Assembly (NCBI RefSeq): GCF_000092905.1
Contig: NC_014098.1
Coordinates: 1,116,001 to 1,180,000, forward strand
From: Kyrpidia tusciae DSM 2912
GTDB taxonomy: Bacteria; Bacillota; Bacilli; Kyrpidiales; Kyrpidiaceae
Length of the DNA: 64,000 nucleotides
Direction of reading: 5' to 3'
In this document: piece by piece, positions 43,505 to 47,330 of the stretch
Layout: the number at the start of each line of letters is the position of its first letter
Position numbering within the stretch: position 1 is the stretch's first letter
Position numbers and translations under genes: made by a program
The notes under the pieces: model-generated
Told to the model about the DNA's origin: nothing
Seen by the model: only the letters and a program-made list of their open reading frames with translations
Databases searched by the model: none

Positions 43505-43639
43505 ATGGACATGGTAGATGATGGCTCCCATAAGCATAAATGGGCAGAGTTCTTGGCATAGTAATTCAGTGCTGATCTTTAGACGAGACTTGGTGGGGTA
43601 ATGCGGGGCAAACGTGCAAGGCGGCAAAAAGAAAAACAA

Positions 43640-43709
43640 CAGAAGAAAAACATCAGAAGAAAAACATCAGAAGAAAAACATCAGAAGAAAAACATCAGAA
43701 GAAAAACAT
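43640..43709 (+). repeat. Five perfect copies of a 14-bp tandem repeat
   Basis: CAGAAGAAAAACAT is repeated five times without change. It lies exactly where GerA homology starts, so it marks the scar of the lost gene part. Because the unit is not a multiple of three, gain or loss of a copy shifts frame. Confidence 0.95.
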
Positions 43710-43913
43710 CAGTTGGTTTCGCTGCGGTCCTTCGGGGTGCCGTATCTGTCCCCCCTTGCTCCCATCATGTGGCCGGACATCCAGGATGTCTTCACGAGGC
43801 CACCGTCGTGGCAGATGCGCCAGCGTCCAAAAACCATGGAGCCGGTGGATTCCATTCGGAGCGCGGAGATCCCGAGGCCCCTGCCGGGTCAGTCGGAACA
43901 AGATCCTCTCTGA
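43710..43913 (+). pseudogene. C-terminal stump of a GerA-type spore germination protein
   Basis: The frame VSLRSFGVPYLSPLAPIMWP, then DIQDVFTRPPSWQMRQRP, is the characteristic last 65 residues of GerA-family (GerKA/GerBA) receptor subunits. All preceding domains are missing and replaced by the 14-bp repeat tract. The stop (43911-43913) lies just before the gerB frame, as in an intact receptor operon. Confidence 0.8.
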
Positions 43914-43949
43914 AAGATGACGGTCGAGAATTCTGGAGGGCTTGTGTCT

Positions 43950-45020
43950 ATGCAACAATTGTCCCGCGTGCAGTTCATCATGGTGAGCATCTGGGTTTTT
44001 CTGGGCACTGGATTTTTGACATTACCGTTTACCATCGGACAATTCACTGTGCGGGATGCTTGGATCGTCCCTTTGCTTTTTGTGCCTCAGGGGTTGATCG
44101 TGGCCGGGGTGATCACTTTGTTCCGACGGACCTTCCCGGGGCAATCGCTGGTGCAAGGCTGTCACACGGCTTTCGGCCCGTTTCGGGGAAAAATTCCGAG
44201 TTTGTGGTTCCTGATCATGACACTTGTCGTCGAATGTTTCGTTCTTCGCGAAGTGGGCCTGTTTTTGACTGCCACGATCCTGCCTTCGACCCCAGAATAC
44301 GTTGTGGATATGGTGTTTATGATTCCCGTTGGGTACGCGGTGTATCAAGGGGTGGAAGTAATCGGGAGAATGGGGGAAACCATCACGCCCATCGGGATGG
44401 GCATTACGCTGCTCATGTCGTTGCTCTCGATGCAATATGCGGATCTTTCCCACTATCATCCTGTTTTGGCGGACGGTTGGACCCCTGTTCTGCGGGGCAG
44501 TGTGGTAGTCTGGATGTACGCGTGGCTGTTGATGTTTGTCCTGCAACTGGGCGGAGCGGTTCAACGAGTGGGGAAAGATCTTCTGATGGTCGTGTTGATC
44601 ATTACGTTGGGAGGGTTTATCGCCGAACCGACCATTACTATGATTTTGGGGCCGAGTGCGGCTTATACTCTTTATCCGATCTTGGAGGTGGTGCGGACCA
44701 TTCGGATTGCCGATTTTCTGGAGCGTTTGGATACGTTTTACGTGATCGGGATCATCGCCGGTATCTTTCTGCAGTGTTCTTTGATTCACTACGCTTTTGC
44801 AACCGGCGTCGGTCAATGGATCGGGCTGAGGAACTATCGTCCTGTCGTGTGGAGCGGCGCAGCGCTGGTCTGGGCGGGCAGTATTTTTTTCATACGGGAT
44901 GAAGCGATGTTTTTGGACTATGTTAGGTATGTCGGCTGGGGGTACCTCACACTGACGGGGATTGGCATTCCGAGTTTGGCCGTTGTCGTCCACCGGTGGC
45001 ATCGGCGCCGCAAAGCATGA
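43950..45020 (+). CDS. GerB-type germinant receptor permease (GerKB/GerAB family)
   Basis: 356 residues with about ten hydrophobic helices, of the APC-like endospore germination permease family (N-terminus LSRVQFIMVSIWVFLGTGFL; internal LYPILEVVRTI). It normally binds germinant with partner A and C subunits in the spore inner membrane. Here the A gene is a stump and no gerC follows, so the protein is orphaned. ATG 43950 follows GGAGGG; the frame is open from 43917. Confidence 0.85.
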   Translation: MQQLSRVQFIMVSIWVFLGTGFLTLPFTIGQFTVRDAWIVPLLFVPQGLIVAGVITLFRRTFPGQSLVQGCHTAFGPFRGKIPSLWFLIMTLVVECFVLREVGLFLTATILPSTPEYVVDMVFMIPVGYAVYQGVEVIGRMGETITPIGMGITLLMSLLSMQYADLSHYHPVLADGWTPVLRGSVVVWMYAWLLMFVLQLGGAVQRVGKDLLMVVLIITLGGFIAEPTITMILGPSAAYTLYPILEVVRTIRIADFLERLDTFYVIGIIAGIFLQCSLIHYAFATGVGQWIGLRNYRPVVWSGAALVWAGSIFFIRDEAMFLDYVRYVGWGYLTLTGIGIPSLAVVVHRWHRRRKA

Positions 45021-45090
45021 TCCCCTCATGCCCGGCTCCTGTCCACCGGATGCCACCGGTGTCGCTATCCGTTTCGATGAGCGGCGGAAC

Positions 45091-46895
45091 TTATTCCACG
45101 TTGATGAACGTGACCAAACCGCCCATAGAGGCCATTCGGTGGGCGGATCCATCTCCCGCCTCACTGGGATTGACGGTGTGGTCGAGAATATGGCAGTGGA
45201 ACATCCATTGCCCGGGGTTGTCCGCCGTGAACGCGATATCCGCCGTTTGGGCGGGGCCCAGGCTGATGGTGTTGGCCCGTTCTGGTTGCGACAGCGAATT
45301 GCCGTCCTTGGCCACAATGTCAAACGTATACCCGTGCAGGTGCATGACGTGAAATTCCTCGGCGCTGGCGTTCACAAGGCGCAGAAGAACGCGGTCCCCG
45401 CGATGCACGGTGAGCGTGGGGGCCTCAGGAAAAGCCTTGCCATTTAGGGCGAAGACATTTTCCTCCTCACTCCCGCCAACTTTAAAACTCGATATCTCGT
45501 ACACGGCATCGACGTCGTAGGGTGGAGTTGTGGAGGACTGACGCGGATCGATAACGATCACTCCATGAAGACCCATATCCATCTGAAAATCGTCGTTCAC
45601 GTGGGTGTGGTACAGGTGTGTTCCGATCATTTGATCCGTCACGGTAAATCGATAGGTGTATGAACCGCCCGGTGGAATCTCCGGCTGGGTTCCGACGGTT
45701 CCCGAGCCCGTGGCCATCTGTGGCACGCCATCCATCGCATTGGGAACAGCCAGCCCATGCAAATGCAGAGTGGTCGGCTGGGGAAGATCGTTCTTCAATA
45801 CAATGGCCACTTTGTCTCCCACTCGGACTCGGATGAGGGGCCCGGGCACCGTGTGATTGTATCCCCATGCGTCGATGGTGGCACCGGGGTAGAGCTTCCA
45901 GGGAAACACGGACGCCGTCAGATCGTATTCCTTTGTACCATCGGGCAGGACTTTGGGACTTAGGGCCTCCTCGTGCAACAGCTGGTTGGCCGCCTGCCGT
46001 TGTCGTGCGTTCTCCTCGGCCGAAATCGGGGCTACAGCTCCGGTTTTGGCTGCTGTGGCCGGCAGTACATCGCCATCCGGTTCCCGAAGGGCGTGCTCCT
46101 CTTTAGCTTCGCCTCCCTGGGCGGCGTCTGCCACCACTTCGGTTCCCCACCCGAGGCCAAAGCCGATCGCCAAGGCGGCCATAATAAGTTTTTGGGCCGT
46201 TTCCTTGCGCACGGCAAACAGGAGTTCTTTCACTACGTAGAGGATCGCTCCTCCGGCCATGGCGAGAACGAAGATGGACACGAACTCGGAGGTCCACAGA
46301 CTGCCCAACAACGTCCCGACAAAGGTTAGGCCGCCGCCGATCGCTCCCAAAAGGAGAATGGAAGCCCAGGACAGGCGCTCTCCTGTTCGGGTCGAGGCGC
46401 CGACGATCCCGAACCCCTCGGTGGCGTTGTGGAGGGCAAAACCGATGACCAGACCGATGGCCAAGGCAGTTTTGCCTGTGGCGAACGATTGGCCGATGGC
46501 CAGCCCTTCGCTGAAGTTGTGCAGCCCGATCCCGGCGGCTGTCATGTAAGCCAGGCGAGTCCCACTTTCTCGCAATCCCCGCTCAAGCCACTTCTCTTGG
46601 ATGGCCGCCAAGCCGACCAGGCCGATGAGCAGCCCAACCATCAACAAGAGGACATTGGCGATCGCGCCCCCCGCCGACCCCGCCCCCTCAACGGCAGATT
46701 GGACGGTGCCGGCTGTATCCCCCGCCGCTTCACCGAGAATCTCCACCAGCAGATAAACCAGGATTCCGGCGGAGAGAGCATACTGAGAATCGCCCGAACC
46801 TTGCTGTTAAGGCCGCTCAGGCGCCCGAGGGGCAGTCCGATATAAATGGTTCCACCCGCAATGAGACCCAGAAGCACCAGTTGCCAGTGATTCAT
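45091..46895 (-). pseudogene. ZIP metal transporter fused to multicopper oxidase, frameshifted near the N-terminus
   Basis: ATG 46895 has CGGAGGTG upstream and starts MNHWQLVLLGLIAGGTIYIG, a first ZIP helix, continuing to AILSML. A GAGAGA run (46772-46777) adds two bases; in the other frame the protein goes on as AGILVYLLVEILGEA. The ZIP part has HNFSEGLAIG and HNATEGFGIV, metal-site helices. After a linker (about residue 235 of the long frame) come two cupredoxin domains with all copper ligands: HLHG, HTH, HVMHLHG and HCHILDH. An internal GTG at 46746 could still give a 551-residue product that lacks the first helices. Whether the slip is fixed, phase-variable or an assembly error cannot be told here. 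Confidence 0.8.
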
Positions 46896-46921: not shown

Positions 46922-46936
46922 TGAGAATGATTATCA
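46922..46936 (-). promoter_or_regulatory. Fur-like box upstream of the ZIP-oxidase gene
   Basis: TGAGAATGATTATCA matches the 7-1-7 Fur consensus TGATAATNATTATCA at 14 of 15 positions. It lies 27 bp upstream of the ATG at 46895, a position that would block transcription. The match is better to Fur than to PerR or Zur. Confidence 0.7.
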
Positions 46937-46979: not shown

Positions 46980-47330
46980 AATCGGTGGCGGGATCACGGG
47001 CCAAGGGCGAGAATTGTGCCGAGTGGCCGAGCGGCTACGCCTGGCGCTCGTCGGGGAGCAGCCGATAGGACCTCTCGCTTCGGTTTACGCGGTACAGGAA
47101 TGGGGCAGATGCGGGAGCACTCCGGCTTCGCCTGACGACCTACGCAAAAAATAGACCTGCATAAACCTGTTGAGCGATCACTCATGCTAGCGGGGGGGCA
47201 TACTTGCAATTGTATGTGGCGACAAGCGAGCTGGGCCTGAATCATGAACTTTTATGTCTGATAAGTCTTTGCTCGTTGTTTCAGGCCGGAGAAGAAGCGG
47301 TGACCCGGAACCTTTTTCCTCTCATTCGTT
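46980..47330. other. 350-bp gap without a gene
   Basis: Nothing certain. 47019-47056 resembles the D-arm of tRNA-Ser but does not fold into a tRNA. Confidence 0.4.

Follow-up and report, generated by a model that had tools for sequence, protein, structure and literature searches.

Does the locus at 45,091–46,895 encode a single protein in which a ZIP metal permease is joined to a multicopper oxidase (MCO) and, if so, what would such a chain do? We addressed this question in a 64,000-nt stretch of the Kyrpidia tusciae DSM 2912 genome (NC_014098.1, positions 1,116,001 to 1,180,000; hereafter, the window, to which all positions refer unless stated otherwise). A sequence-only reading of this DNA had described one reading unit under a Fur-like box, linking a ZIP permease to a two-cupredoxin MCO with all copper ligands retained, and had likened its logic to the Fet3–Ftr1 pair of yeast. 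Below, G000 denotes the window genome and G001 and G002 denote two Kyrpidia relatives.

The window gene is split between two registers

The interval 45091–46895 comprises 1,805 nt, which is indivisible by 3, and the proposed single reading unit did not survive inspection of the deposited sequence, which holds two registers (Table 1). The frame from ATG 46895 is ZIP-like for 39 codons and then departs from the ZIP register; its residues 1–41 share 78% and 88% identity with the two Kyrpidia relatives. DNA alignment with G001 and G002 placed two extra bases of the window at the CTCTCT run. Judged against the helices of an intact relative (L005, from G001), the open reading frame (ORF) starting at GTG 46746 lacks transmembrane helix (TM) 1 and about half of TM2. 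The break thus leaves the window frame short of the eight helices of a ZIP, all of which are present in L005.

Table 1 Features of the locus in the window
Feature	Position	Strand	Basis
ZIP gene start: ATG at 46895 and 39 codons (TM1 and first part of TM2), in a different register from the remainder	46779..46895	-	Frame reading, DNA alignment
CTCTCT run with 2-base frame break	46773..46778	-	DNA alignment with G001 and G002
Open frame of 551 aa from the listed GTG: remaining ZIP, linker, two-domain multicopper oxidase	45091..46746	-	ORF list, Pfam
In-frame ZIP portion, residues 1–212, with HNFSEG and HNATEG metal-site motifs	46111..46746	-	Pfam, alignment
Linker between ZIP and oxidase (boundaries approximate)	45961..46110	-	pLDDT <50 at the matching part of an intact relative
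Cupredoxin domain 1: trinuclear-site His 328, 330, 380, 382; no T1 Cys (boundary approximate)	45502..45960	-	Pfam, alignment
Cupredoxin domain 2: T1 His466, Cys518, His523, probably Met541; trinuclear-site His 469, 471, 517, 519 (boundary approximate)	45094..45501	-	Pfam, alignment
Fur-like operator (putative), upstream of ZIP start	46922..46936		Pattern scan

The frame shift may reflect slippage, recent mutation or an error in sequencing, and, as the deposited gene is broken near its start, its expression in K. tusciae could be off. That the gene is a decaying pseudogene or in a slippage-controlled OFF state, which would reveal little about K. tusciae itself and is compatible with the family-level reading developed below, seems to us a real possibility on which we would nevertheless not bet. 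Ka/Ks between the window and G001 is 0.117 for the ZIP part, no higher than the 0.137 between the intact G001 and G002 genes, which suggests constraint until recently without long free drift; the MCO part also appears constrained (0.071 and 0.050, respectively). Codon change rates thus give no support to prolonged decay, and a sequencing error is a possible source of the break. Leaning the other way are the two surplus bases of the CT run close to the start, Leu140 in the window ZIP, where 47/47 aligned relatives have Pro, and changes in 4/78 ZIP columns otherwise invariant among ZIP–MCO proteins, compared with 1/75 in L005 (6/80 in L025 and 5/79 in L007).

The surroundings of the locus offered several further observations. 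A second copy of positions 43714–45238, 81% identical, lies at G000:C1:2113000–2119500 (L119). The duplicated stretch covers a gene for a spore-germination permease (PF03845, 114 bits) and its surroundings but, of the oxidase gene, the tail alone, which explains why the genome has a further MCO fragment, interrupted by a stop at 2116018. A short in-frame repeat, KTSEEKHQKKNIRR, lies at the start of a listed ORF (43600–43700), and no tRNA was found near 47000. In G001 and G002, the fusion (L115, L116) is divergent from genes that we take to be electron-transfer flavoprotein-like; none of these lies within the window, so the fusion gene is placed elsewhere in K. tusciae than in its two relatives.

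The oxidase carries its T1 copper site in domain 2 only

Pfam analysis of the 551-aa ORF identified a Zip domain (PF02535, residues 64–197, 41.1 bits, curated cut-off 35.1), Cu-oxidase_3 (PF07732, residues 291–403, 122.5 bits) and Cu-oxidase_2 (PF07731, residues 425–524, 108.8 bits). Zip scores of relatives fell on either side of the cut-off (34.9 bits for L005, 35.5 for L042, 36.8 for L024, 36.7 for L007 and 34.7 for L026). ZIP metal sites are marked in TM4 and TM5 by the motif HNxxEG ... [HQ]NxxEG, and the H-N-E residues of both helices are retained in the window and in 47/47 aligned relatives.

The catalytic copper ligands that can be judged from sequence are complete in the window, with eight trinuclear-site histidines and the T1 His, Cys and His, and Met541 is a possible axial T1 ligand. 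These trinuclear histidines and T1 residues are conserved in 6/6 ZIP–MCO and 41/41 MCO–ZIP rows, except for one Gln at a His in one row. The earlier claim of a full ligand set therefore stands for the judgeable residues, with the correction that the T1 site is confined to domain 2. In domain 1, Thr381 occupies the would-be T1 Cys position, which is Thr or Ser in 47/47 fusion relatives. Because the T1 site is missing from domain 1 and present in domain 2, the window oxidase is, by its ligand pattern, a type B two-domain MCO. In the text available of PMC13151041, type B enzymes are those with T1 in their C-terminal cupredoxin, one such two-domain MCO forms a trimer with its T1 sites facing a central tunnel, and Fe2+ is among the substrates oxidized by the characterized enzyme. 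By analogy with its class, the fusion oxidase would likewise form trimers, our own models being of single chains.

Intact one-frame fusions occur in two domain orders

To place the window gene among its relatives, we examined 102 loci for ZIP and MCO in one frame. The order ZIP then MCO occurred in eight (counting the frame of the window and one duplicate) and the order MCO then ZIP in 43, of which 41 were kept as intact. Left out before the counts were duplicates (L001 of the window, L006 of L027 and L009 of L031), L033, cut at a contig end, and L064, with a split frame. Intact ZIP–MCO genes (L005 in G001, L006 or L027 in G002, L007 in G052, and L024, L025 and L026) thus come from six distinct genomes: G001, G002, G052, Alicyclobacillus acidiphilus, A. 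cellulosilyticus and a Deinococcales metagenome-assembled genome (MAG). Together with the 41 intact MCO–ZIP loci, they rule out the fusion as an assembly or sequence error. The sequence-only reading had offered homologues encoding two separate proteins, with the fusion arising from sequence error, as its own refutation; the outcome was the reverse, the irregularity breaking a fusion that homologues keep. Its architecture claim accordingly stands for the family, with intact one-frame fusions found by the search it had suggested, and fails for the window copy, which is not one open frame.

Within the class of the window genome, a one-frame match over both parts was found in 5/398 genomes, the window's shortened frame included. 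In our Eremiobacterota sample, 113/148 genomes had any match and 65/148 had a match covering ≥500 of 621 residues, 64 of them without an internal stop (G198 has one). No conserved neighbors or operon emerged in Eremiobacterota, the largest flanking cluster comprising seven loci (43 loci given, L030 and L064 skipped). One MCO–ZIP locus, L038, is titled Rhodospirillales, a label that we suspect to reflect misbinning.

Related arrangements short of a full fusion were also recorded. A. herbarius (L031/L118) has an intact 311-aa ZIP followed, in another frame, by an MCO remnant lacking ~200 residues; the oxidase alone appears to have been lost, suggesting that ZIP and MCO need not remain together. 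Alicyclobacillaceae often carry a neighboring pair of two-domain MCO genes that are unfused and of the type closest to the ZIP–MCO oxidase (G032, G214, G228, G242, G264, G286, G350, G359, G457, G475 and G537), and the search found no ZIP match beside these pairs in the 11 genomes. Other C-terminal domains are joined to ZIPs of the same subfamily: a single cupredoxin in L094 (Deltaproteobacteria, 69 bits), a weak match to a cupredoxin in L101 (Obscuribacterales, 21.9 bits) and, in L081, L095 and L096 (Omnitrophota), an unnamed domain marked by HGPRHGG, with no Pfam match for that of L096.

The two orders arose separately

In a ZIP tree of 80 rows, ZIP–MCO rows clustered with the unfused L032 and L011 (support 0.999), while 41/41 MCO–ZIP rows formed one clade (support 1.0) on the opposite side, with unfused ZIPs lying between. 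Forcing the fused rows together cost 83.75 log-likelihood units (approximately unbiased (AU) test, p 7.1e-8, on 50/80 rows with every fourth MCO–ZIP row taken). The MCO tree, in which the A. cellulosilyticus fusion was entered as unfused (L133), grouped ZIP–MCO oxidases with unfused Alicyclobacillaceae oxidases (0.999), away from the MCO–ZIP clade (1.0). A single ancient fusion with a later swap of order is therefore rejected for the ZIP half by the AU test and is not favored by the MCO tree. On these phylogenies, the ZIP/MCO fusion arose at least twice, in opposite domain orders. Since both trees and the AU test separate the fusions, the coupling was fixed and selected at least twice.

The oxidase is predicted to lie outside in both orders

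Of the 43 MCO–ZIP frames, 42 have a signal-like hydrophobic stretch N-terminal of the MCO (the split frame L064 is the exception), and up to eight hydrophobic segments follow the MCO, as judged by Kyte–Doolittle hydropathy only. The model of L005 (mean pLDDT 86.8) shows eight helical segments, a linker at <50 and then the cupredoxins; that of L042 (mean pLDDT 80.6) shows a signal-like helix, the cupredoxins and then the ZIP helices. Both termini of ZIPs, as in BbZIP, lie outside. For this reason, and given the predicted helices and signal peptides, the oxidase should be extracytoplasmic in both domain orders, which is the result of the topology prediction that had been proposed as a check.

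Comparison of the L005 model with solved structures supported the fold of two-domain MCOs, the best matches being 3gdc (Z 31.1), 2zwn (Z 31.0) and 3g5w (Z 30.8); 2zwn and 3g5w have their T1 Cys in domain 1. The fold search also matched Fet3p (1zpu, E 3.4e-19). Its lists were filled by MCO chains and scarcely covered ZIP folds. In sequence, the ZIP half gave a weak match to BbZIP (5tsa and others; E about 0.015), with the TM4 and TM5 metal residues aligned. TM5 of the fusion carries a His where BbZIP has Gln, and BbZIP has no oxidase domain.

Putative operators connect the fusion to iron genes

Fur sites follow a 7-1-7 pattern. The Fur-like box noted in the sequence-only reading was confirmed by a pattern scan as a 15-mer, TGATAATCATTCTCA (minus strand), with one mismatch to TGATAATNATTATCA, lying 26 bases upstream of ATG 46895; 0.01 such matches are expected per shuffled window. 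The window genome has Fur-family genes, in keeping with a Fur-box-like putative operator near the fusion start. The sequence TGATAATNATTNTCA has exactly two sites in G000 (a single 3,384,766-base contig), one at the fusion gene and one ~21 bases before an imelysin-domain gene (131.7 bits) that is followed by a Dyp-peroxidase gene; we take these two to be EfeO and EfeB. A scan for sigma-70-like promoters upstream of the fusion found none.

A different element, the palindrome TTGACTN4TAGTCA, stands directly before the start of the fusion in G001 and G002 and of the ZIP gene in A. herbarius (G049), with degenerate forms in A. acidiphilus and A. cellulosilyticus. Its exact form matched six times in seven genomes, compared with two matches of a reversed control pattern. 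Three of the six sites are at fusion or ZIP genes. The other three, all in Alicyclobacillus, comprise two located ~30 bases ahead of FTR1-like genes, which scored 24.6 and 29.3 bits (cut-off 25.3, narrowly missed by one of them), and one preceding a SufC-like ABC gene; Pfam there gave ABC_tran and a general ATPase only, and the stretch behind the palindrome presumably encodes SufC, SufD and SufS. Assigning one regulator to the palindrome failed, since the Fur and DtxR families are both present in 7/7 genomes.

The fusion gene of G052 and a gene for an FTR1 permease (121.7 bits) are transcribed divergently, with Fur-like sequences, read by eye, at both sides of the intergenic region; the other flank of the fusion holds genes for an ArsR-type regulator and a heavy-metal ATPase. 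The Fur-like pattern matched at four further places in this genome, which we weigh neither for nor against iron. FTR1 was found in 0/148 Eremiobacterota genomes, with positive controls in 4/14. This absence fits a replacement of FTR1 by the fusion, yet it constitutes no specific correlation, because the 148 genomes include those with and without the fusion. Overall, the putative operators and iron-gene neighbors support a link between expression of the fusion gene and the iron regulon.

Comparison with known oxidase–permease systems

The nearest known system is the archaeal MCO1 and ZIP gene pair. In ammonia-oxidizing archaea, MCO1 adjoins a ZIP permease in most genomes, as stated in the available parts of PMC5767755 and PMC5817080. 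The accessible text of PMC7785015 proposes Fet3-like uptake for this pair with copper as the metal (Cu+ to Cu2+, then ZIP) and reports that copper limitation raises MCO1 and the neighboring ZIP-type permease (log2 FC 0.81 and 1.33). We located such a pair in Nitrosarchaeum (L125), where the MCO frame ends at 770 and the ZIP frame begins at 760 on the same strand; another Nitrosarchaeum ZIP, L076, was rejected as the partner, its flanks holding no MCO. The archaeal system shares with the fusion a two-domain MCO beside a ZIP-type permease and a proposal of oxidation with uptake. It differs, as far as these sources go, in consisting of two proteins, in its link to copper limitation, in a ZIP that is only distantly alike and in its T1 Cys, which in L125 lies in domain 1 (YHCH), with no Cys in domain 2.

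Yeast Fet3–Ftr1 likewise couples an extracytoplasmic MCO to a permease, and its Fet3p is matched in fold by the fusion oxidase. Fet3, however, is a separate protein of three domains and Ftr1 is not a ZIP; the permease half of the fusion matches Zip, not FTR1 (PF03239). Bacterial EfeUOB/FTR1 systems combine iron-regulated extracytoplasmic oxidation with a permease, and the EfeO/EfeB-like pair of K. tusciae bears the Fur-like pattern of the fusion, although these systems use other protein families and several subunits. Known type B two-domain MCOs (such as C. japonicus MCO and small laccase) share the ligand pattern and the C-terminal-only T1 site but are, in the available text of PMC13151041, soluble exported trimers, whereas the fusion oxidase is joined to a permease. 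No ZIP–MCO fusion was described in the literature searched, which omits most subscription papers, and PMC3192119 mentions neither a fusion nor a permease. The statement that no characterized example exists thus holds for the fusion itself and needs qualifying for its logic, the archaeal pair having already been given a Fet3-like role with copper (PMC7785015, in the text available).

Proposed function and alternatives

We propose that the gene family encodes a single-chain oxidase-permease, in which a two-domain MCO of type B is attached, on the outside of the membrane, to an eight-helix ZIP importer. The oxidase would transfer electrons to O2 from a metal in its reduced state, with Fe2+ the likeliest donor; the oxidized ion would be presented to the attached ZIP and brought into the cell, with expression linked to the iron regulon. 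We give about even odds (roughly 0.5) to this reading of the family as a single-chain, iron-regulon-tied oxidase-permease that couples oxidation to the uptake of a metal, most likely iron. Functional coupling is argued by two independent fusions in opposite orders, both predicted to be extracytoplasmic; metal identity, transport direction and hand-over between the domains are what we infer. Of the suggested parallel to Fet3–Ftr1, oxidation plus uptake under iron control gains from the intact fusions, the second fusion, the predicted topology and the iron-gene promoters, with iron as the favored metal. Several observations count against the proposal. ZIPs generally import divalent ions, and the chief chemical difficulty is that a ferroxidase yields Fe3+. 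Two-domain MCOs are trimers, which may or may not suit the oligomeric state of a ZIP. Eremiobacterota show no conserved neighbors, the window copy is frame-broken and the A. herbarius MCO has decayed. Iron in particular is weakened by variation of the operator among relatives, by the small palindrome count and by the link of archaeal MCO1–ZIP to copper limitation (PMC7785015, available text). A more specific version, which we rate as less likely than not, envisages a new importer class in which each ZIP is fed by its own oxidase: a type B MCO trimer, its T1 sites facing a central tunnel, would cap the mouths of the ZIPs and channel newly oxidized Fe3+ into a ZIP that accepts it. Such a class would replace FTR1 in a phylum in which none was found, and would have arisen at least twice in opposite orders.

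The clash between Fe3+ and the usual divalent ZIP cargo keeps a copper reading alive, in which the oxidase makes Cu2+ from Cu+ and the ZIP imports it, or the two parts together handle copper, in line with the proposal for archaeal MCO1–ZIP. ZIP chemistry, which favors divalent ions, would suit this version, and a same-subfamily ZIP with a single cupredoxin exists (L094). The archaeal pair, of the kind seen in L125, rises under copper limitation (PMC7785015, available text), but its MCO has the T1 Cys in domain 1 rather than in domain 2 as in the fusion, and the operators and neighbors in Bacillota are of iron type, not copper type; we consider copper rather unlikely. Coupling itself is denied if the ZIP only anchors the MCO, which would detoxify Fe2+ or Cu+ at the membrane, and imports Zn2+ or Mn2+ independently. 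The intact ZIP beside a decayed MCO in A. herbarius would agree with such a protective oxidase, as would the frequent occurrence, in the same family, of ZIPs and of type B MCO pairs that are not fused; two independent opposite-order fusions, both predicted to be extracytoplasmic, argue instead for coupling, and iron-starvation-type operators suit uptake better than detoxification, which makes this account unlikely in our view. Manganese, with the MCO oxidizing Mn2+ and the palindrome serving as an MntR site, appears improbable: G000–G002 each have one DtxR-family gene, of a weaker-scoring sort, and two of these genomes carry the palindrome, but in Alicyclobacillus this palindrome stands before FTR1-like and SufC-like genes, and the window bears a Fur-like box.

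In the known cases of oxidase-coupled metal uptake, FTR1 is partnered by Fet3-like or Efe proteins. If the proposed coupling of oxidation to uptake is true, a ZIP as the permease half would upset the usual view that ZIPs handle ready divalent ions only. A single chain that evolved twice would be a clean object for studying direct hand-over of an oxidized ion, and the fusion makes the published proposal for archaeal MCO1–ZIP testable in culturable bacteria.
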